Part shown: positions 22,833 to 32,265 of the stretch, one piece after another
Layout: every line of letters starts with the position of its first letter
How positions within the stretch are numbered: the stretch's first letter is position 1
Source: Nitrospirota bacterium
Lineage (GTDB): Bacteria; Nitrospirota; Thermodesulfovibrionia; Thermodesulfovibrionales; Dissulfurispiraceae
Length of the DNA stretch: 57,045 bases
NCBI GenBank assembly: GCA_021791055.1
Contig: JAJYXI010000039.1
Span: forward strand, 1 to 57,045
Reading direction: 5' to 3'
Translations under genes and position numbers: made by a program
Notes under the pieces: generated by a model
Seen by the model: the letters and a program-made list of their open reading frames with translations, nothing else
Told to the model about the DNA's origin: nothing
Databases searched by the model: none

Positions 22833-23966
22833 GTGACCAACCTTTATCAAATTTTTTTCCTTAACCTTGCCCTGGGCCTAATATTGGGCTTTGTATTCCA
22901 CAGGTCCGACCTCTGCATGGCCGGAATGTTCCGCGACATATTTCTCCTGAAACGCACCTTCCTGCTCAGGATACTCTACTTGCAGGTGATTGCTACAATG
23001 GCGCTCTTCTTTATTGCAAAGAAAGCAGGGCTCATCAGCCTCTATCCCCCTCCAAATCTCAACATCGCATCGCTTGGAACACTGGCCGGAGGCATGATAT
23101 TCGGAATAGGGATGGTGCTGGCAGGGGGTTGTGTAATAGGAACACTTTATAAAATGGGCTCCGGAAGCATTATCAGTATTATTGCATTTGCAGGGCTTAT
23201 TATCGGAAGCGCTGTTTTTGCAGAGTTCTATCCATTCTGGGCAGAGTTTTCAAAAAGAACCAGGGTCTCTGAAGCTGTATTGCTGCCGCAGCTTATCGAT
23301 GAACATTTTCTTATGTTCCCCATCCTGTTTATATCATCAATGCTTATTTTCAGATGGATGCGCTCCAAAAAATTGCATCAGAAGGCCTATGCAGAGGGGT
23401 ACATCCATCCGTGGAAGGTTGTAATTATCATTGCCCTTTTAAATTTGATCATTTATATAAGCTCCGATATGCCCATGGCTGTCAGTACAGGATATTCAAA
23501 GATCGCTGCATATCTGGAAAAGATCCTTGTTCCGGATCATTTTGAGACTGTAGCATTTTTTAAAAAGGAATCATATTCTGTTTTACATCCGGCCAGTAAG
23601 TCTTTAATTGCAGGCGGCCCTGGTGCTAAGTTTGATCACATATCCTCTACCGAGATTTCCCTCATTCTCGGAGTCATATTCGGGTCTTTTATATCCGCAG
23701 TCTCAATAGGAGAGTTCAAACTGACCTTAAGTACGCTTCCCCCTCCGGGACAGAATATATCCGCCTTATTGGGTGGCATATTACTTGCTTTAGGTTCGAG
23801 GATGGCAGGGGGATGCAATGTGAAGTTTCTAATGAGCGGTCTTCCCCTGCTCTCTATCCAGGCATTCCTGTTCCTCTTCGGGATGCTGCCGGGTGCATGG
23901 GTTGGAACCTATTTATTTAAAAAATTTATTATCAGCTATGGCAGGGAGGGCAGTGATGGAAAATGA
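22833..23966 (+). CDS. YeeE/YedE-family sulfur transporter
   Basis: A 377-residue membrane protein with about 9-10 transmembrane segments and the YeeE/YedE signature: HRSDLCMAGMFRD near residue 24, GIGMVLAGGCVIGTLYKMGSGS near 90, and the repeat ALGSRMAGGCNVKFLMSGLPLLS near the C terminus. The Cys residues within the GGC motifs relay thiosulfate or sulfane sulfur in characterised YeeE (TsuA). The next gene is TusA-like and overlaps by 11 bp, the usual YeeE-TusA pairing. GTG start at 22833; the -35/-10 elements are not clear. Confidence 0.9.
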   Translation: MTNLYQIFFLNLALGLILGFVFHRSDLCMAGMFRDIFLLKRTFLLRILYLQVIATMALFFIAKKAGLISLYPPPNLNIASLGTLAGGMIFGIGMVLAGGCVIGTLYKMGSGSIISIIAFAGLIIGSAVFAEFYPFWAEFSKRTRVSEAVLLPQLIDEHFLMFPILFISSMLIFRWMRSKKLHQKAYAEGYIHPWKVVIIIALLNLIIYISSDMPMAVSTGYSKIAAYLEKILVPDHFETVAFFKKESYSVLHPASKSLIAGGPGAKFDHISSTEISLILGVIFGSFISAVSIGEFKLTLSTLPPPGQNISALLGGILLALGSRMAGGCNVKFLMSGLPLLSIQAFLFLFGMLPGAWVGTYLFKKFIISYGREGSDGK

Positions 23967-24234
23967 AACAGTGATCAATCTCGATGTAATAAGCCTGGAT
24001 ATTCGGGGACAGATATGTCCTGCATGCCTTCTCATTTCCTTAAAGGAGATCAATAAACACAAAGGACTCCTGAGAAACGGCGAGGCAAACCTGATCGTAA
24101 GGACAGACCACAGGGATGCCACAAGGACTATTCCCGATGCGGCTGTTGCCATGGGGTATGCGGTCTCTGTGGAAAAGAAAAAGGGATACTATGAGATTAC
24201 AGTAGGGCGAAAAGATGAAGACCAGAAGGCATGA
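23956..24234 (+). CDS. TusA-like sulfur carrier
   Basis: A 92-residue TusA/SirA-fold protein. The active-site region reads DIRGQICPACLLIS, with C21 in the position of the TusA sulfur-carrying Cys; the usual Cys-Pro-x-Pro is Cys-Pro-x-Cys here, giving a second Cys (C24). The rest follows the TusA fold (EINKHKGLLRNGEANLIVRTDHRDATRTIPDAAVAMGYAVSVEKK). ATG 23956 is preceded by GGGAGGG and overlaps the YeeE stop by 11 bp; its own 3' end overlaps the kinase gene by 20 bp. It probably accepts sulfur imported by YeeE. Confidence 0.85.
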   Translation: MENETVINLDVISLDIRGQICPACLLISLKEINKHKGLLRNGEANLIVRTDHRDATRTIPDAAVAMGYAVSVEKKKGYYEITVGRKDEDQKA

Positions 24235-25492
24235 CAACCACATAAGTATTCCGGTAGAAAGTGAAGATGCGGAGAGGAAGAATGCTATCCTTCTTCAATA
24301 TATCAAAGAGAAGGTAAACCAACTGCTGCAGATTATGGGTACAAAACCCCTGAGGGATGAAGAGCTTAATGACGAGAGTCTTATTGCCATAGACCCGATA
24401 GGCATCATCGCAGAATCCTTTGAGCAGGTGCTCGAGCATCTGAAGGAGAGCAACAGGCAGTTGCAGCTTGCGAGGGATTATCTGCAAGCTGTCTTTGATA
24501 CTGCCGGCGTGGGTATATCCATCATTGATCGGGACTTGAGAATTATCAAATGCAATGAAAAACAAAAAGAGCTTCTGGTAGCCGGTGTATCGCACATAGA
24601 AGGCAAACATTGCTATGAGGTTTATTGCGGAATAGACTCGCCTCCTTTGATATGCCCTGCCATAGAGACCCTGGAAATGGAGCGCCCTGTCTTTTTGAAA
24701 GAGGTAACCAAAAAGGGAAGGGTTTTTCAGATTGTCACATCCCCTCTTAGAGACAGTGCTGGAACAATCACAGGTGTTATTGAAGTATCCTTGGACATGA
24801 CAGAGAAGAAAAGGGCAGAGGAGGCAATGTGTCAGGCAGAAAAGCTGGCTGCTGTAGGGCAGCTTGCAGCAGGTATTGCACACGAAATAAACAATCCCCT
24901 CGGTAATATCCTCGGCTATGCCAAACTCCTCCTTATGGATCAATCCATTACAGAGGCACAGGGTGAGAAATTGAAGGTTATCGTAGAACAGGCAAACAAG
25001 GGGGGTCAGATTATCAAAGGGCTTCTGGAGTTTTCACGTCAAAAAGTGCCTGTTTTTGAAAAGGTTTCCCTTAACGAATGTGTTGAGAATGCCCTTCGGT
25101 CTCTGGGAAAAGGCAACAGTATAAGGGTTGTAAAGAGATTGGGCGATATTCCTTATGTGATGGCTGATCCGAGACAAATGGAACAGGTTTTCCATAATAT
25201 CCTTCTCAATGCCATACAGGCATTAGAGGGTAGTGGAGCAATAGAGATAGAAAGCAAGGTTATAGGCGGCTCAATAGAAGTTTCAGTAAGAGACAGCGGT
25301 CCGGGCATACCCAGAGAGCATTTGAGCAGAATCTTCGAGCCCTTCTTTACCACAAAGCCGGTGGGAAATGGCACCGGACTCGGCCTCAGCATCTGTTCCG
25401 AATTGGTGAAGAAGCATGGAGGTTCTATATTCGTGGAGAGTGAAATCGGCGGGGGGACCACATTTTCTATCATAATACCCATAGGGAGGTAG
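24215..25492 (+). CDS. PAS-domain histidine kinase
   Basis: A 425-residue soluble sensor kinase: helical N terminus, PAS domain (about residues 85-195), HisKA with H223 in GIAHEINNPLGN, and HATPase with DSGPGIP and GTGLGLSICSELVKKHGG. The PAS domain contains three Cys (C133, C138, C147; CYEVYCG...CPAI), a pattern suited to a redox or metal-thiolate signal. It overlaps the TusA-like gene and is followed 2 bp later by a sigma-54 activator, so it probably reports sulfur or redox state and controls the downstream sigma-54 operon. Signal identity is inference. Confidence 0.87.
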   Translation: MKTRRHDNHISIPVESEDAERKNAILLQYIKEKVNQLLQIMGTKPLRDEELNDESLIAIDPIGIIAESFEQVLEHLKESNRQLQLARDYLQAVFDTAGVGISIIDRDLRIIKCNEKQKELLVAGVSHIEGKHCYEVYCGIDSPPLICPAIETLEMERPVFLKEVTKKGRVFQIVTSPLRDSAGTITGVIEVSLDMTEKKRAEEAMCQAEKLAAVGQLAAGIAHEINNPLGNILGYAKLLLMDQSITEAQGEKLKVIVEQANKGGQIIKGLLEFSRQKVPVFEKVSLNECVENALRSLGKGNSIRVVKRLGDIPYVMADPRQMEQVFHNILLNAIQALEGSGAIEIESKVIGGSIEVSVRDSGPGIPREHLSRIFEPFFTTKPVGNGTGLGLSICSELVKKHGGSIFVESEIGGGTTFSIIIPIGR

Positions 25493-25494
25493 GC

Positions 25495-26832
25495 TTGTTT
25501 GATATTCTGGCAATAGAAGATGACCGGAGAATGAGGGAGCTCTTAATGGAGATACTCAGCCGTGACGGATGCTCTGTATTTACTGCAAAGAACGGGGAAG
25601 AAGGACTTGATTTTCTTGAGAGAAGGAATTTTGATCTTGTTATTACTGACCTCAAGATGCCTGATATAGACGGCATTACCATCCTCTCAAGGGCACGGGA
25701 GATCAATCCCGAGAGCCTGGTCATAGTAATCACCGCATACGGGACAGTGGAGTCCGCCATTGAGGCCATGAAATTAGGAGCCTATGACTACATCCAGAAG
25801 CCATTTGAGCCCGAGGAGCTGATGCTGGTTATAAAGAAGGCATTGGACTATAAAAGGCTCGCCGATGAGAACTTAAGATTATCAAGTCAGCTTGAGTCCT
25901 GCAGGTCAGAGGAACTGATAGGCACAAGCCCATCAATGGCGGAGGTCAAGAAACTTGTGGAGAGGATTGCGCCCCTCGACACCACTGTAATCATAGAAGG
26001 AGAGACAGGGACAGGGAAAAACCTTGTGGCAAAGACCATCCACAGGATAAGCAAAAGGTCATCCGGAAAATTTCTGAGCATAAACTGCGGGGCACTCACA
26101 GAGACACTCCTTGAATCAGAGCTATTCGGACACGAAAAAGGGGCATTTACCGGCGCCATAAAACAGAAGCAGGGCCTTTTTGAGGCTGCCCATGGGGGAA
26201 CACTATTCCTTGACGAGATAAACAATGCAAGCCTCAACATGCAGATAAAGCTCCTCAAGGTGCTGGAGGAAGGAAGGATTATGCGCATTGGCTCCACGGA
26301 ATCCGTGCCTGTGGATGTCCGCATCATTGCTGCAAGCAATATCCCCCTTAAAAAAGAGGTGGACGAAGGCAAGTTCAGGCAGGATCTGTACTATCGCCTT
26401 AAGGTGGTGACTGTTACCATGCCCTCCCTAAAGGAAAGGCGCGATGATATACCCCTTTTGGCACACCACTTCCTCGACAGGTATCGCGAGAGATTCGGCA
26501 AGGAGATTCAAGGCTTCACAACAGAGGCAATGGATACACTTCTGACATATGACTGGCCGGGCAATGTCAGGGAACTGGAACATGTCGTCGAGAGATCTGT
26601 TATCTTAGAGTATGGTAAAAAGATCGGTATATCTTCCCTTCCGGCAGAACTCCGTTCCCGGCCAAAAGAGATGGTATCGCCAAAAGGCATCATGCGGCTT
26701 GAAGATATGGAAAGGCAATTAATCCAATCCGCATTGAGGTTCTTTAACGGCAAAAGGGATTCGGCTGCCCGTGCACTCGGCATCAGTCTGACCACCCTCT
26801 GGAGAAAGCTCAAGAAATATAATCTCGACTGA
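25495..26832 (+). CDS. Sigma-54-dependent response regulator, NtrC family
   Basis: A 445-residue activator: receiver with D52 (VITDLKMPDIDG), AAA+ domain with EGETGTGKN Walker A, full ELFGHEKGAFTGA loop, GTLFLDEINNAS Walker B, and a C-terminal Fis-type helix-turn-helix (RDSAARALGISLTTLWRKLKKYN). TTG start at 25495, 4 nt after GGGAGGT. It follows the PAS kinase by 2 bp and lies 81 bp upstream of a near-consensus sigma-54 promoter, so it is the obvious candidate activator of the sulfur operon that begins at 26971. Confidence 0.93.
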   Translation: MFDILAIEDDRRMRELLMEILSRDGCSVFTAKNGEEGLDFLERRNFDLVITDLKMPDIDGITILSRAREINPESLVIVITAYGTVESAIEAMKLGAYDYIQKPFEPEELMLVIKKALDYKRLADENLRLSSQLESCRSEELIGTSPSMAEVKKLVERIAPLDTTVIIEGETGTGKNLVAKTIHRISKRSSGKFLSINCGALTETLLESELFGHEKGAFTGAIKQKQGLFEAAHGGTLFLDEINNASLNMQIKLLKVLEEGRIMRIGSTESVPVDVRIIAASNIPLKKEVDEGKFRQDLYYRLKVVTVTMPSLKERRDDIPLLAHHFLDRYRERFGKEIQGFTTEAMDTLLTYDWPGNVRELEHVVERSVILEYGKKIGISSLPAELRSRPKEMVSPKGIMRLEDMERQLIQSALRFFNGKRDSAARALGISLTTLWRKLKKYNLD

Positions 26833-26912: not shown

Positions 26913-26928
26913 TGGCATACCTATTGCT
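26913..26928 (+). promoter_or_regulatory. Sigma-54 promoter of the sulfur operon
   Basis: TGGCATACCTATTGCT matches the -24/-12 consensus (GG and GC dinucleotides with correct 12-bp phasing). It lies 43 bp before the rhodanese start codon and downstream of a sigma-54 activator gene. Upstream activator sites were not identified with confidence. Confidence 0.85.
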
Positions 26929-26970
26929 TTACTGTTTTATCAATAATTTTTGCAAAGAGGGAGGTACGAG

Positions 26971-27969
26971 ATGAGTAAAAAAAGTCTATTAGCATTAGTA
27001 ATGATGGTAGCTTTTGTAGCTATTTCCGCAAATGCCTATGGATGGGCAAATCCGGATCTTCTCATGAACTCAGACGATGTGGAGAAGATTGCTGCAAAAC
27101 CTGACTGGGTAATCCTTGACTGCCGCGGTAAAGAGGCATATGGGAAAGAGCATATCCCCGGAGCCATAGTTCTTGATTGCAGGAAGGACCTGAGGGATGG
27201 GACAGAAAGGGTATTGAAGCCAGCACAGTTGGAAAAGATACTCGGGAATGCAGGCATTGGTAATGACAAGAATGTTGTTGTATATGGTGATGCAAAGGAT
27301 ATAGTCCATGCAAGTGTAGGATTCTGGATACTTGAATACATGGGGCATGATAAGACTCATTTTCTTGACGGAGGCCTCACTGAATGGAAAGCGGCTGGAA
27401 AACCTGTAACAACAGAGCCGAAGACATTACCGCCGGCAACATTCAAGGCTAAGGTTGTTCCATCAAGGTATTCCTCAACAGATGAGATTGTTAAGATTGC
27501 AAAGGGAGAGACAAAAGGTATTCAGGTTATAGATGCAAGGACGGAAAAGGAATACAATGGTAAAGAGTCCCGCTCCTTAAGGGGAGGCCGCGTTCCCAAT
27601 ACAACCATAAATGTATCCCACGAGCTTACATACGACAAGCGCACAGGAAAGCTGCTTCCTGAGAAGTTTTTAGAAAAATCTTACGGCAGTCTTGATAAGA
27701 ATAAAAGGACGGTAGGGTTGTGCCAGACAGGCTCACGCTCCACACTCACATATCTACAGTTGAGGCTTATGGGCTTTAAAGACCCTGCAAACTATGATGA
27801 TTCATGGATTGTGTACGGCAACAGCGTATATCCACCCTATCCAGTGGAGAACGAGCAGTGGATTAATATGGAAGGCCTTGTGAAAATGTCGGCAGACATA
27901 AAGAAGCTTAAAAAAGAGATCGCGGACCTGAGGAAAGAGTTAAATCTGCCGCCGAAAGAAGAGAAGTAA
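26971..27969 (+). CDS. Exported double-rhodanese sulfurtransferase
   Basis: A 332-residue periplasmic protein with a signal peptide (LLALVMMVAFVAISANAYG) and two rhodanese domains. The first (to about residue 145) has an active-site loop without Cys (VVYGDAKD), so is probably structural. The second has C251 in LCQTGSRSTLTYLQL, the sulfur-accepting Cys of thiosulfate or 3-mercaptopyruvate sulfurtransferases. A charged C-terminal helix follows (KKLKKEIADLRKEL), perhaps for oligomerisation. It is the first gene after the sigma-54 promoter. It would transfer sulfane sulfur outside the cytoplasm, upstream of the carriers and YeeE transporter encoded in the same operon. ATG 26971 follows GGGAGGT. 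Confidence 0.9.
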   Translation: MSKKSLLALVMMVAFVAISANAYGWANPDLLMNSDDVEKIAAKPDWVILDCRGKEAYGKEHIPGAIVLDCRKDLRDGTERVLKPAQLEKILGNAGIGNDKNVVVYGDAKDIVHASVGFWILEYMGHDKTHFLDGGLTEWKAAGKPVTTEPKTLPPATFKAKVVPSRYSSTDEIVKIAKGETKGIQVIDARTEKEYNGKESRSLRGGRVPNTTINVSHELTYDKRTGKLLPEKFLEKSYGSLDKNKRTVGLCQTGSRSTLTYLQLRLMGFKDPANYDDSWIVYGNSVYPPYPVENEQWINMEGLVKMSADIKKLKKEIADLRKELNLPPKEEK

Positions 27970-27988: not shown

Positions 27989-28537
27989 ATGGGTGAACAA
28001 ATAAAAATAGTTCCGCTTGGTGAAGTTGATGGGGGTATTATGATGGAGGTTGCAACTCAGGTCAGTATGACATTAGGAATAACCGCAATAGTTGACGAGA
28101 TGCAGCACTATCATGAATCTGCCTATAACCATCAGCGGGGACAATATTCTGCTGAAAGTTTCCTGAAATTTTTGGATGCGCCGAAGGAAGGAAGCATCAG
28201 GGTGCTCGGTATCACCGATGTTGACCTCTACATTCCGGATTTAAATTATGTGTTCGGCCTTGCAGACGAATCACGCGATGTCTCTCTTATCTCTATTTCA
28301 AGGTTTAAAAAAGGAAATGGGAAGGTGGTTGAGAGGGCTGTCAAAACTGCAGTCCATGAGCTTGGGCACACATACGGACTTGTCCATTGTCATGACAACA
28401 AATGCGTTATGTATTTTTCCTATAACCTTTCGGATACCGATTATAAGGGAAAAGAATTCTGCATTAAATGTCAGAAGACATTGGATAAAAGTAAGAATCT
28501 ATTTCGCGGGGAAACGATGTTTCCCGCGCTAAGGTGA
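27989..28537 (+). CDS. amzA: Archaemetzincin-family metalloprotease
   Basis: A 182-residue archaemetzincin. The extended zinc motif HELGHTYGLVHC begins at H123 (E124, H127 and H133 as ligands and catalytic base), followed by the structural zinc-binding CxxxxC and CxxC set (CHDNKC...CIKCQ), as in the AmzA family (HExxHxxGxxHCx4CxMx17CxxC). It is complete and apparently active. No signal peptide, so cytoplasmic. Its presence inside a sulfur-transfer operon is unexpected; role unknown. It begins 19 bp after the rhodanese gene. Confidence 0.93.
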   Translation: MGEQIKIVPLGEVDGGIMMEVATQVSMTLGITAIVDEMQHYHESAYNHQRGQYSAESFLKFLDAPKEGSIRVLGITDVDLYIPDLNYVFGLADESRDVSLISISRFKKGNGKVVERAVKTAVHELGHTYGLVHCHDNKCVMYFSYNLSDTDYKGKEFCIKCQKTLDKSKNLFRGETMFPALR

Positions 28538-28544
28538 AGGGCGC

Positions 28545-28847
28545 ATGAAACTTGGTATCTTAGTGAACACAGACAAAAACCTCGCTCATATATTGGGCAT
28601 CACAAAGGCAGCAATAGATAAGGGGCATGAGGTCATAATATTTAATATGGATGATGGGACCAGACTTCTGAGCGAACCTGCCTTCAGGACATTATGCAGC
28701 ACAAAAAGCGTTTCCATGAGCTTTTGCGACCACAGCACCCATGTCCTTAATGTATCAAAGGAAGGTATTCCTGATGAGATAGTCTGCGGCAGCCAATACA
28801 ACAATGCTGTCATGAACCATGATGCAGATAAGGTCATTGTTTTATAG
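28545..28847 (+). CDS. DsrE-like protein
   Basis: A 100-residue Rossmann-like small protein of the DsrE/DsrF-like fold (MKLGILVNTDKNLAHILGITKAAIDKGHEVIIFNMDDGTRLL). It carries three Cys (C51, C61, C81); in DsrE a central Cys carries persulfide. Start 8 bp after the archaemetzincin stop. It is the first of three adjacent small proteins (this, 28859-29140 and 29150-29320) that resemble the DsrE, DsrF and DsrH subunits of the TusBCD/DsrEFH sulfur relay. Confidence 0.7.
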   Translation: MKLGILVNTDKNLAHILGITKAAIDKGHEVIIFNMDDGTRLLSEPAFRTLCSTKSVSMSFCDHSTHVLNVSKEGIPDEIVCGSQYNNAVMNHDADKVIVL

Positions 28848-28858
28848 GGAGGACAGAA

Positions 28859-29140
28859 GTGGACGCAAAGAAAATAGCCGTAATCGTTAGGAACAGACAG
28901 TCAGAGGCATTCAGGATGAGCGTTGGTCTCACTGTCCTTGACGACATAATAGATGTTTTTATAACAGAGCCTATCAAGGATGATAAGGAGACCCTTACTC
29001 AACTTGAGGGGGTAAAGGAGATGAAGGAACTGGGCATCATAAATCTCTTCACAACTGTTAAAGGGACAGGCTTTGAATTTATAACCGTAGAAGATATGGC
29101 AGGGAGACTGCTCGAGCATGACAACATTTTGCCGTATTAG
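28859..29140 (+). CDS. DsrF/TusC-like protein
   Basis: A 93-residue protein of similar fold to DsrE (KKIAVIVRNRQSEAFRMSVGLTVLDDIIDVFITEPI...GIINLFTTVKGTGFEFITVEDMAGRLLEHDNILPY). No Cys is present, so it would not itself carry sulfur; TusC/DsrF also usually lacks the active Cys. GTG start at 28859 with AGGGAGG upstream. Position between DsrE-like and the short DsrH-like gene supports the role of a structural subunit. Confidence 0.55.
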   Translation: MDAKKIAVIVRNRQSEAFRMSVGLTVLDDIIDVFITEPIKDDKETLTQLEGVKEMKELGIINLFTTVKGTGFEFITVEDMAGRLLEHDNILPY

Positions 29141-29149
29141 GGAGGATAA

Positions 29150-29320
29150 ATGAAGGTTTTGCATCTGCTTAAATCCGAGCCTGACGAAACTACAAGGAAA
29201 ATAATGGAAATACATAAGGCAGAAAATGATGTGAAGGTCATTGACCTTACAAAGGGCGATTTTTCTTATGAGAGTATCATAGAGGACATATTTAGTTATG
29301 ACAAAGTCATATCGTGGTAA
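29150..29320 (+). CDS. DsrH/TusB-like short protein
   Basis: A 56-residue protein with the start of a DsrH/TusB-like fold: MKVLHLLKSEPDETTRKIMEIHKAENDVKVIDLTKGDFSYESIIEDIFSYDKVISW. Length is about half of a normal TusB (about 95 residues), so the family link is tentative. AGGGAGG precedes ATG 29150 by 5 nt. It ends at the natural TAA with no sign of frameshift. It completes an apparent E-F-H-like trio. Confidence 0.55.
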   Translation: MKVLHLLKSEPDETTRKIMEIHKAENDVKVIDLTKGDFSYESIIEDIFSYDKVISW

Positions 29321-29353: not shown

Positions 29354-29518
29354 ATGGGTGAGGTAAGGGGAGGTCTGACATTACCATGGCTTTGGGTGGC
29401 TGTTGTTATTGCCTTTTTAGCATTGGGCTTTATACTGCCACCCCTTGATAAACCATTAAGGGACCTTGCTAAGCAGGCAGAGCAGATGAAGACAATGCAG
29501 GAGACCACTTCTCAGTAA
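29354..29518 (+). CDS. Small single-span membrane protein
   Basis: A 54-residue protein with one strongly hydrophobic segment (LPWLWVAVVIAFLALGFILPPL, about residues 10-31) and a soluble, helical C-terminal tail rich in Gln, Glu and Lys. GGAGG precedes the ATG. It lies between the DsrEFH-like genes and the exported GGC-tail protein. Could anchor the sulfur-relay proteins to the membrane; that is inference. Confidence 0.6.
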   Translation: MGEVRGGLTLPWLWVAVVIAFLALGFILPPLDKPLRDLAKQAEQMKTMQETTSQ

Positions 29519-29556
29519 GACTTTTTAGACAAAATATCAATATGGAGGTATAAGAG

Positions 29557-30033
29557 ATGAAAACGAAAAAGACAATAGTATTGGCGGTTATGCTGTCACT
29601 GGCATTTTTGACAATGCCTTTGATAAGCGGAATCAAAAAGACACAGACAACGGTGTCTCTGGTATCCGAAGCACATGCCGAGGATGTTAAGGGTTTTAAA
29701 TGGATTCCGAGAAGGCCCGGGATTACAAGGGCGCAGATAGCCCTCGGAAGGGCTGTTACAATACCCTTTGAATTTACAGTTACAGAAAATGTGAAAAAGG
29801 TGAGGTTTGAATTGCCAAAGAAATTTGTAGACCTCGGCATTGATATTCTGGAAGACGAAGTGGCTGTTAAGGGCGGTAAAGCTTCGTCATCCGTGGCGTT
29901 CACTGTGCCACCTGGAAAACCATTGGGCAAGTTTGACATGGTGGTTACGGCAAAGGATGCAGCAACAGGAAAAGAGATAGGCAAAGGCACAATACAGTTT
30001 ATGCTTCTACCGCCGGGTGTAGGTGGATGTTAG
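29557..30033 (+). CDS. Exported Ig-like carrier candidate with C-terminal GGC
   Basis: A 158-residue protein with a Sec signal peptide (KKTIVLAVMLSLAFLTMPL..., cleavage probably near SEAHAE), then a beta-rich domain (AVTIPFEFTVTENVKKVRFELP...GGKASSSVAFTVPPGKPLGKFDMVVTAKD...KGTIQFMLLP). The last residues are PPGVGGC, so the chain ends in Gly-Gly-Cys. This recalls SoxY, whose C-terminal GGCGG swinging arm carries the thiosulfate-derived intermediate. The only Cys of the mature protein is this terminal one. Placement next to exported rhodanese and YeeE supports a sulfur-carrier role. SoxY homology is not established. Confidence 0.65.
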   Translation: MKTKKTIVLAVMLSLAFLTMPLISGIKKTQTTVSLVSEAHAEDVKGFKWIPRRPGITRAQIALGRAVTIPFEFTVTENVKKVRFELPKKFVDLGIDILEDEVAVKGGKASSSVAFTVPPGKPLGKFDMVVTAKDAATGKEIGKGTIQFMLLPPGVGGC

Positions 30034-30063: not shown

Positions 30064-31464
30064 ATGAGTGATTTCGGCATAAAAGGCTGGTGGGACTCAT
30101 GGTACAAAAAATTCTTCAGGGAAAAATGGCCTCTCTGGATAGCAGCTATATTTATGGCGCTTTCAGGGATAATAGCATACGGAGTAGCCGTATGGTCCCT
30201 GTCAAGGACGGTAACCGGAGAGAACCCTTATGATCAGGCAAAACCCCTTGGAACATTTCTCGGATTAAAGGAACTCGGAGGCATTATCAACAGCTTCTTC
30301 GGCAAGATAGGTCTGCCTCACTATCCTTTCAACGGCTATATATGGCCTGACGGGCAGACAATAAACTATTTTGTCCAGTATCCTAATCCGTTCCTTGAGC
30401 CGACAGCAGGGACTATGCTCGGCATACTCTTCGGGGGGCTTATCGCTGCACTTTTAGCAAAGGAGTTCGCACTCAAGGTGCCTCTTGACAAGACGGAGTA
30501 CGGACTTGCGCTTTCCGGCGGTGTGATGATGGGAATAGGCGCGGTCTTTATGTTCGGTTGTCCCCTGGTAAGCACAACTAATATAGGCGCCATGGGTGTT
30601 CAGGCTATTGAAATGGTTATAGGTATGACCATAGGTTCATTCTTTGGAGCAAAGATAATTATCTGGCTCGAGAAGCGAAGGCTGGCATCCCTGGCATGCG
30701 CTGCTGATGGCGCAGGCTATAGGCCATTAATGCATTTTGAAAAGACAAAGACCATATGGCCAAAGATGCCGGCCAATGCAGACGGAGGCGAACCGTTTGG
30801 CATAAGATTTCAGCCTGTAATGGCAATAATCCTTACTCTTGTCATGTTCATTGTTTTGGCACGGTTTACCAAAATCGGCTACCCTGCCCTCTCCATGTCA
30901 TTTCTGGCAGCAACACTTACGGGCTTTGCCATGCAGAGGGGAGGCATGTGCTTTGCCTATGCATACAGGGAGCCCTTTTTAACAGGCTTCAGCGATATGT
31001 CGAGGGCAATGGCGCTTCTCTACGCACTGTTGGTAATAGGTTTTCTTCCATTCAAGCTCCTTGGCTCCGTGTCCCCTGATATTGCCTATGCCGAGATATT
31101 CGCCATAAGCCCTGCCGGCATAGGGATACTCATCGGTTCAGCCCTGTTCGGACTCGGCATGGCGCTCAACGGCGCATGCGTCAGCGACAGCCTCTGGAGA
31201 ACTGCCGAGGGACAGGTAAAAATATGGGTAGGTCTCTTAACACTCATCTGCGTTTCCTCATGGTTATTCCCGATGAGGGAGGAGGCATGGTTCAAGACCA
31301 TCTTTGCACCGTACGGTTCAAAGAATATAACGGATGTGTATCTGCCCCAGATATTCGGGAGCTATCCCATAGCGGTCGTTTTTACAATAAGTGTAGTGCT
31401 TTTATGGGCGCTCGTGATGACATGGTTTGCAGGCAGGACATTCAAAAGATATATGGAAGAATAA
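30064..31464 (+). CDS. YeeE/YedE-family transporter, large form
   Basis: A 466-residue membrane protein with about 12 transmembrane segments. Two YeeE/YedE repeats are seen: GVMMGIGAVFMFGCPLVSTTNIG (near residue 165), a second with QRGGMCFAYAYREPFLTGFSDMSRA, and GLGMALNGACVSDSLWRTAEG near residue 365. Conserved Cys within these loops can relay thiosulfate or persulfide. The first repeat has GC instead of the usual GGC. It is followed 12 bp later by tusA, the normal pairing. Transports a sulfur anion, likely thiosulfate, into the cytoplasm. Confidence 0.88.
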   Translation: MSDFGIKGWWDSWYKKFFREKWPLWIAAIFMALSGIIAYGVAVWSLSRTVTGENPYDQAKPLGTFLGLKELGGIINSFFGKIGLPHYPFNGYIWPDGQTINYFVQYPNPFLEPTAGTMLGILFGGLIAALLAKEFALKVPLDKTEYGLALSGGVMMGIGAVFMFGCPLVSTTNIGAMGVQAIEMVIGMTIGSFFGAKIIIWLEKRRLASLACAADGAGYRPLMHFEKTKTIWPKMPANADGGEPFGIRFQPVMAIILTLVMFIVLARFTKIGYPALSMSFLAATLTGFAMQRGGMCFAYAYREPFLTGFSDMSRAMALLYALLVIGFLPFKLLGSVSPDIAYAEIFAISPAGIGILIGSALFGLGMALNGACVSDSLWRTAEGQVKIWVGLLTLICVSSWLFPMREEAWFKTIFAPYGSKNITDVYLPQIFGSYPIAVVFTISVVLLWALVMTWFAGRTFKRYMEE

Positions 31465-31476
31465 AAGGAGGTTAAA

Positions 31477-31713
31477 ATGACAACAGAAGCCAAAATCGAT
31501 AAAGTCCTCGATGTAAAAGGTCTGGTATGCCCGAGACCGATGGTAATGACCATGAATACATTAAAGACAATGGAAAAGGGGCAGGTTCTTCATGTTCTGG
31601 CAAATGACAGCAGCACCAAGCACAGTATCCCGGCCCTCTGCGAGAGGAGCGGCTATAAACTTGTGGAGATGAAAGACGAGGCTGGTACTATCAGCTTCAT
31701 AATTCAAAAATAA
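31477..31713 (+). CDS. tusA: TusA-family sulfur carrier
   Basis: A 78-residue TusA with the full Cys-Pro-x-Pro motif (LVCPRPMV, C18) and the conserved fold (LKTMEKGQVLHVLANDSSTKHSIPALCERSGYKLVE). It receives sulfane sulfur as a persulfide and passes it on; the preceding YeeE gene suggests it takes sulfur released on the cytoplasmic side. AAGGAGG precedes the start. It is the second TusA-type gene in the window, and unlike the first (23956) has the standard CPxP. Confidence 0.93.
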   Translation: MTTEAKIDKVLDVKGLVCPRPMVMTMNTLKTMEKGQVLHVLANDSSTKHSIPALCERSGYKLVEMKDEAGTISFIIQK

Positions 31714-31738: not shown

Positions 31739-32194
31739 ATGTATAAGAATATTTTATTGCCGACAGACGGCTCGGAACTCTCGGAGGATGCCATAAAGAG
31801 CGGTATCAGCCTTGCTAAGTTCCTTAACGCAAGGGTTACAGGGCTTTATGTAATACCAAAACCAACCTCAGGCGACATATGGGATGTATGGGCGCCTGAG
31901 AACACAGAAGAAGGAAGGATGTTCAGGACTAAATTTCAGGCATCGTTTGAGTGTATAGCAACAAGATACATATCAGTAATTGAGAATGCAGCAAAAGAGG
32001 CAGGAGTCCCCTGCGAATGCATCTATGTAACAGGCGAATATCCGTCTGATGAGATAATAAAAGCAGCAGAAGGCAAGGGCTGCGACCTCATCTTTATGGC
32101 ATCCCACGGCAAGAGAGGTATAGGTGCTATCCTCGGAAGCGTGACAACAAAGGTTTTGGCGAGTTCTAAAATTTCTGTTTTAGTGCATCGCTAA
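31739..32194 (+). CDS. Universal stress protein, UspA family
   Basis: A 151-residue UspA with the ATP-binding type motif near its C terminus (ASHGKRGIGAILGSVTTKVLASS, the Gx2Gx9GS pattern) and N-terminal NILLPTDGSELSEDAIKSGISLAK. Last gene of the operon, followed by a strong terminator. UspA proteins bind ATP and assist stress survival; no specific link to sulfur is known. Confidence 0.93.
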   Translation: MYKNILLPTDGSELSEDAIKSGISLAKFLNARVTGLYVIPKPTSGDIWDVWAPENTEEGRMFRTKFQASFECIATRYISVIENAAKEAGVPCECIYVTGEYPSDEIIKAAEGKGCDLIFMASHGKRGIGAILGSVTTKVLASSKISVLVHR

Positions 32195-32236: not shown

Positions 32237-32265
32237 GGGCGAACCATAGTGTTCGCCCTTTTTTT
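32237..32265 (+). terminator. Intrinsic terminator of the sulfur operon
   Basis: GGGCGAAC (32237-32244), a 6-nt loop, GTTCGCCC (32251-32258), then a run of seven T (32259-32265). A perfect rho-independent terminator after the UspA gene; the convergent trpC stop lies at its end. Confidence 0.92.

Follow-up and report, generated by a model that had tools for sequence, protein, structure and literature searches.

A gene encoding an exported protein that ends in Gly-Gly-Cys was found in the window, the whole 57,045-nucleotide stretch of Nitrospirota DNA that was analyzed (contig JAJYXI010000039.1). With moderate confidence, the protein is proposed to be a periplasmic sulfur carrier that resembles SoxY in its way of working but is not a SoxY, and that would feed the transporter YeeE and TusA. 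We infer the sulfur on the Cys, its donor, its hand-over and the direction of flow. The carrier reading is supported by the strictly conserved GVGGC end, by a tail more conserved than the domain that bears it, by co-occurrence with a long YeeE, and by the position of the gene in a single unit of sulfur-transfer genes that extends from a sigma-54 promoter to a terminator. The invariant cysteines of YeeE, the CPxP motif of TusA and the same end on the unrelated protein ExtH argue for it as well. The features of the locus are collected in Table 1.

Table 1. Features of the Gly-Gly-Cys operon and of the module upstream of it (window coordinates).
Feature	Position	Strand	Basis or remark
Second, short YeeE of upstream, probably regulatory module	22833..23966	+	PF04143 1.5e-51
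Second TusA-like protein, true start probably inside ORF	23893..24234	+	PF01206 1.3e-11
PAS histidine kinase	24215..25492	+	Pfam search
NtrC-type (sigma-54 activating) response regulator	25495..26832	+	Receiver domain, GETGTGK Walker A, GAFTGA and C-terminal HTH read from sequence; orthologues adjoin operon
Sigma-54 type promoter TGGCATACCTATTGC, exact box	26913..26927	+	Directly after NtrC-type regulator gene, ahead of operon
Exported two-domain rhodanese, active-site Cys252 (CQTGS), proposed sulfur loader	26968..27969	+	PF00581 5.1e-27
Archaemetzincin-like protein	27989..28537	+	NF033823 162.8 bits, above cut-off
DsrE-like sulfur transferase (type II cluster)	28545..28847	+	PF02635 5e-4, 20.7 bits against cut-off of 22.7; two invariant Cys
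DsrF-like protein (YTD conserved hypothetical)	28859..29140	+	Homologues adjoin DsrE in other YTD loci; putative DsrF by position
DsrH/TusB-like 56-aa protein (YTD conserved hypothetical)	29150..29320	+	Homologues adjoin DsrE; putative DsrH by position
Conserved 54-aa membrane protein (GGLTLPWLWVA...)	29354..29518	+	Similarity in 14/21 compared loci, one pair identical
Ribosome-binding site GGAGG of Gly-Gly-Cys gene	29544..29548	+	Sequence
Exported Ig-like protein with terminal Gly-Gly-Cys, proposed periplasmic sulfur carrier	29557..30033	+	158 aa
Signal peptide, residues 1-41, signal peptidase I site AHA/ED	29557..29679	+	Hydropathy, Ala41 invariance
C-terminal arm MLLPPGVGGC, Cys as last residue	30001..30030	+	Most conserved 10-residue stretch
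Long YeeE/YedE-family sulfur transporter, proposed acceptor	30064..31464	+	PF04143 2.3e-34
TusA sulfurtransferase (CPRP motif)	31477..31713	+	PF01206 6.4e-22; Cys18 invariant in 17/17
Universal stress protein, last operon gene	31739..32194	+	PF00582
Rho-independent terminator after operon	32237..32258	+	8-bp stem, then TTTTTTT

The reading frame starts with ATG, and a TAG stop follows directly after ...PPGVGGC, as an earlier reading made from the sequence alone had described. The signal peptide called in the same reading was borne out by a hydrophobic core at residues 6-20 (Kyte-Doolittle peak 2.41), followed by a long polar stretch and an unusually late A-x-A site before residue 42. All 15 full-length relatives share Ala41, and the site reads A/V-x-A in the sequences inspected. 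The N-terminus (MKTKKTIVLAVMLSLAF) has no twin arginine and does not carry the Tat signal of SoxY. The predicted mature protein comprises 117 residues with its sole Cys as the last one. The statement that there is only one Cys in the mature protein holds for the window protein, but not for the whole family, as a second Cys lies in the predicted mature domain of 4 of the 15 full-length relatives. The stop codon after GVGGC is TAA, TAG or TGA in different relatives, which shows that the end of the protein is real; read-through of the stop was ruled out on the same ground. A terminal Cys is rare: of the 255 other genes at the loci retrieved, a single one encodes it. Close orthologues of the gene showed dN values of 0.03-0.06 against dS values of 0.5-1.0, and codon changes in the tail were synonymous only. 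The terminal Cys is therefore not a matter of chance.

The family was searched for in 395 Nitrospirota genomes, all metagenome-assembled and all from this one phylum. Some form of the protein was present in 20 genomes, and the Cys-terminal form in 17, with 18 copies. Two of these copies are incomplete because they run into a contig edge or an assembly gap. The loci of genomes G275 and G327 are identical. All 18 copies end exactly in GVGGC before the stop codon. The sequence-only reading had let its case depend on conservation of this end among homologues, and in the Cys-form copies the conservation proved to be strict. Mean pairwise identity among the 15 full-length sequences was 0.95 in the last ten residues, 0.60 in the domain and 0.28 in the signal peptide. 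No Pfam or NCBIfam family was matched by the window protein. With Pfam, the members of the family gave only weak beta-sandwich matches (MalQ_N, Ig-like_KY, Wzt_C), a PDB sequence search with the family gave only weak, antibody-type matches, and the plasmid collection contained no match. Judged by its sequence, the protein belongs to a family that is not described in the Pfam and NCBIfam libraries. The signature MLLP[AP]GVGGC at the stop codon is now missed by annotation pipelines.

An AlphaFold2 model calculated with 29 relatives was a confident Ig-like sandwich (pLDDT 90.6), in agreement with the beta-rich domain noted earlier. The last strand of the model stops at mature residue 110, and residues 111-117 form a seven-residue arm. 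The matches listed by Foldseek and VIA-align were generic Ig-like sandwiches (Z 7.6-9.7), with no SoxY among them. The modelled SoxY of the same genome, used as a control, matched SoxY (Z 14-17), superoxide reductases (9-12) and then Ig-like domains. No match to the SoxY profiles PF13501 and TIGR04488 was obtained in Pfam and NCBIfam, and hhalign of the family against a Nitrospirota SoxY alignment gave a probability below 1%. SoxZ was not found among the neighbours of the Gly-Gly-Cys gene; it adjoins the true SoxY on another contig. Homology to SoxY is not supported, given the lack of a profile match, the generic Ig-like folds among the matches listed, and the absence of a Tat signal and of an adjoining SoxZ.

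The likeness to SoxY is nevertheless evident in the models: both proteins would be periplasmic beta sandwiches of about 115-120 residues, in which a short arm directly follows the last strand and carries a Cys next to Gly-Gly. SoxY ends in GGCGG, has a Tat signal and is accompanied by SoxZ, whereas the Gly-Gly-Cys protein has a Sec-like signal and the Cys as its very last residue in all 18 copies. As the two proteins share at most the broad sandwich class, the arm would be an analogy and not an inheritance. The structure comparison suggested earlier returned a beta sandwich with an arm, with no SoxY among the matches listed, and the claim of a SoxY analogue stands in its functional part, through the strict end, the co-occurrence with YeeE and the sulfur-transfer operon, and not as homology. 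SoxY-like proteins of other Nitrospirota (L094-L099, L103) end in VT[IV]GGC without the final Gly-Gly, and those tested score under the curated cut-off for SoxY. Chains that end in GGC therefore occur within the SoxY superfamily. The earlier remark that no other Sox genes are visible is correct for the locus, but not for the genome, in which a SoxB-SoxA-SoxZ-SoxY locus with a SoxX-like cytochrome is present on another contig (L104:3485-7369, contig C22) and which also has dsrA. Dependence of the Cys form on Sox was ruled out. SoxY was found in G000, G056 and G174 and not in G001, G015, G024 and G037; as these four relatives have the operon and no SoxY match, the operon does not depend on Sox.

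Paralogues of the protein, often located in tandem just upstream of the Gly-Gly-Cys gene, end in ECLC, ECMC or KCSC, and in three genomes the ECMC/ACMC motif of the paralogue is followed by a short extension. A third tandem paralogue, present at two loci of genome G281 (L065:8608-9105; L066:2853-3350, minus strand), ends in PAGGD and thus keeps PAGG without the Cys. This paralogue is possibly a SoxZ-like partner, and its lack of a Cys indicates that the Ig-like scaffold has a role without it, which counts against the carrier reading. An alternative to sulfur carriage is that the terminal Cys forms a structural or regulatory disulfide, either in a homodimer or with a CxC-ending paralogue or the rhodanese, and that the protein serves YeeE in assembly or docking. 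Ig-like domains commonly serve as docking modules, the structure searches gave Ig-like folds, and the tandem paralogues together with the Cys-less copy suggest hetero-oligomers. A structural disulfide, however, needs no exposed Gly-rich end with a final Cys conserved beyond the fold. The window genome has a single copy of the family and no CxC-ending partner, and the neighbouring genes encode mostly sulfur-transfer proteins. The disulfide explanation is considered improbable.

The operon has the order rhodanese, archaemetzincin, DsrE/F/H-like proteins, small membrane protein, Gly-Gly-Cys protein, YeeE, TusA and universal stress protein, with internal gaps of 7-38 nt. The Gly-Gly-Cys gene is separated by 38 nt from the gene for the 54-residue membrane protein and by 30 nt from that for the 466-residue YeeE. 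The rhodanese and YeeE genes that had been named as neighbours were confirmed by PF00581 and PF04143 matches in the same operon. Of 13 other loci, 11 have a TGGY-N7-TTGC box no more than 400 nt past the end of the regulator gene. No such box was found in the other two, L058 and L054; the regulator ORF of L054 is partial. The PAS sensor kinase contains a Cys-rich stretch, HCYEVYCGIDSPPLICPA, which is also present in relatives, and could be a sulfur sensor. The archaemetzincin-like protein is a regular member of these operons and has invariant extra cysteines.

By its gene content, the operon belongs to the YTD (YeeE/TusA/DsrEFH type II) clusters, to which it adds an extracytoplasmic part. Genes related to yedE, tusA and dsrE occur together, PF04143 and PF01206 scoring above cut-off and DsrE (E=5e-4) just under it, and the active-site Cys of the TusA CPxP motif was found in all sequences compared. 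A pair homologous to the two small, putatively DsrF/DsrH-like proteins adjoins DsrE in other loci. Elsewhere in the window genome lies another DsrEFH-YeeE locus, which is without the Gly-Gly-Cys protein, the exported rhodanese, the small membrane protein, the archaemetzincin and a sigma-54 regulator of its own.

The long YeeE has the PF04143 domain and the three channel cysteines of YeeE/YedE transporters. Cys166, Cys296, Cys372 and Cys396 were invariant in 16 of 16 sequences. In the alignment with the Spirochaeta thermophila YeeE (6leo), relative to which the halves of the protein are permuted, the first three fall on conserved cysteines. The long YeeE (E <= 1e-80; 76-98% identical where present) was found in 15 of the 395 genomes, all 15 of which also have the Gly-Gly-Cys protein. 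The nominal p-value of 2.6e-25 for this co-occurrence is overstated and is not independent evidence, because of gene linkage and of relatedness among the genomes. The co-occurrence with the rhodanese-YeeE operon that had been proposed as a check was thus observed, with G194 and G331 as exceptions: these genomes have the Gly-Gly-Cys protein without the long YeeE, and genes for an ExtH rhodanese and an ExtI porin follow, with a short YeeE-TusA pair upstream. YeeE may therefore not be the sole partner of the Gly-Gly-Cys protein.

In the proposed mechanism, the protein would be exported by Sec and would fold into an Ig-like sandwich with a seven-residue arm ending in Cys. Sulfane sulfur would be bound to this Cys as a persulfide; its probable source is the operon's exported rhodanese or polysulfide. 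The loaded arm would present the sulfur at the periplasmic mouth of the long YeeE, three conserved cysteines of which may relay it across the membrane. Cytoplasmic TusA would then take the sulfur and pass it via DsrEFH-type proteins to the Dsr pathway. Alternatively, the protein might be a periplasmic substrate-binding protein that holds thiosulfate, tetrathionate or polysulfide on its terminal Cys, as a Cys-S-thiosulfonate, and feeds YeeE with thiosulfate. Thiosulfate is imported by YeeE homologues (PMC11582611), and PMC4175335 describes thiosulfonate on the DsrE/TusA homologues of an archaeon. TusA, DsrEFH-II and DsrC of cable bacteria, however, were not loaded by thiosulfate in vitro (PMC13293266), and the rhodanese in the operon favours transfer of sulfane sulfur; thiosulfate binding is given a low probability.

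A second protein with a terminal Cys was observed in relatives. At ten loci (L060-L065, L067-L069, L073) an ExtH-type rhodanese lipoprotein is encoded in the neighbourhood, and 10 of 10 end in a Gly/Ser-rich arm with the Cys last (KTGC, NIGC, KVGC, HVGC or RVGC). The NCBIfam ExtH cut-off was passed by all four that were tested. About half of the relatives have ExtH downstream of the Gly-Gly-Cys gene; the window operon lacks it, and it was not detected in the window genome at the threshold used. ExtH shares the Gly-rich arm and terminal Cys with the Gly-Gly-Cys protein, but has an unrelated rhodanese domain and an N-terminal lipobox. Since ExtH is a sulfurtransferase unrelated to the Gly-Gly-Cys protein and shares its type of end within the same operons, the terminal Cys is more likely to be functional than structural. 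Distant ExtH-type proteins elsewhere in Nitrospirota end in a Gly-rich GC (several) or in PGY, and the arm is therefore not confined to this operon.

The similar tail of the ExtH rhodaneses, together with the PGY that replaces GC at the end of divergent ones, could also be taken to mean that the C-terminal Cys acts as a signal for sorting or lipidation. Known C-terminal sorting signals need a hydrophobic segment, and none is present after the Cys. As a cleavable export signal already exists and ExtH has its own lipobox, a sorting function is very improbable. More tentatively than for the carrier itself, the terminal-Cys arms may be a convergent device, by which the Ig-like carrier family and, in relatives, ExtH would pass sulfur by a C-terminal Cys from an outer-membrane entry (ExtI porin) to YeeE, supplying TusA/DsrEFH in dsr-bearing Nitrospirota; this broader scheme is regarded as rather doubtful.

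ExtH and ExtI (NF040901/NF040900) are known as selenite/tellurite operon proteins of Geobacter (PMC5877670), and their genes lie downstream in several relatives. The cargo could accordingly be selenium or another chalcogen and the operon a selenium/tellurium handling pathway, a reading with which SelA in the window genome and the best score of the long YeeE, obtained with the selenium YedE/FdhT model (95.7 bits), are consistent. This score is below cut-off and far under the curated value of 350 bits. The neighbours in the window are DsrE/F/H-like proteins, TusA and a rhodanese, and the functional work published on DsrEFH type II deals with sulfur. A dsrA-model match was found in all 17 carrier genomes, in 16 of them above cut-off. 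A selenium cargo is thought about as unlikely as thiosulfate binding.

Possible selenoproteins were observed in two other contexts. In the YeeE of the second DsrEFH locus, in-frame TGA codons stand in place of two of the three conserved Cys (RGRY[TGA]MNSAFRD, AVAGG[TGA]TVGH), both in the window genome (L153:3619-4710, minus strand, contig C80) and in G002 (L154:4483-5571, minus strand). Judged from these codons and from SelA in the genome, this YeeE is probably a double-selenocysteine transporter; YeeE with a single Sec is already known (PMC13188914). An Rfam scan near the in-frame TGAs found no SECIS. An ExtH-type rhodanese lipoprotein (L064:1934-3316, minus strand; also L119 and L120) has an in-frame TGA at the catalytic Cys (VY[TGA]RTG), a probable selenocysteine.

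No known protein in these bacteria accounted for the periplasmic donor step to YeeE, which the proposed carrier would fill. A dedicated carrier with a single, terminal and mutable Cys would make the YeeE uptake step directly testable and, if the carrier reading is true, the arm principle of SoxY arose on other scaffolds too. The YTD/DsrEFH type II cluster is debated, as a marker of sulfur disproportionation or as a sign of sulfur oxidation. The Gly-Gly-Cys protein is not described in the literature examined. A third conserved hypothetical protein of YTD clusters, chp3, is mentioned (PMC12998232), and an earlier mention of the Gly-Gly-Cys protein as chp3 of Umezawa 2020 is possible.

The operon resembles known YTD clusters (Umezawa 2020; PMC12998232; PMC13293266) in its core of YeeE, TusA and DsrE, its two small conserved proteins and its occurrence in dsrA-bearing Nitrospirota. 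It differs from them in a long YeeE of another orthologue group, and in the extra rhodanese, Gly-Gly-Cys protein, small membrane protein, archaemetzincin and sigma-54 regulator of its own. In cable bacteria, transfer from TusA to DsrEFH type II was demonstrated in vitro, a YeeE-like transporter was proposed as importer of sulfane sulfur, and substrate specificity was suggested to reside in the YeeE-type uptake system (PMC13293266). In Hyphomicrobium denitrificans, SoxT1A imports sulfur and SoxT1B signals its presence; it was considered conceivable that sulfur moves from the Cys of SoxY via the three cysteines in the YeeE-like SoxT1, but direct Cys-to-Cys transfer was doubted because the cysteines are about 7 A apart (PMC11582611). 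The SoxT1A/SoxYZ system is similar to the present one in that a periplasmic carrier is proposed to feed a YeeE-like importer with TusA downstream (PMC11582611), and by the same parallel the short YeeE-TusA-kinase module might signal, as SoxT1B does. The carrier of that system is SoxYZ and its regulator SoxR, whereas here the proposed carrier is the Gly-Gly-Cys protein and regulation would be by a two-component sigma-54 system.
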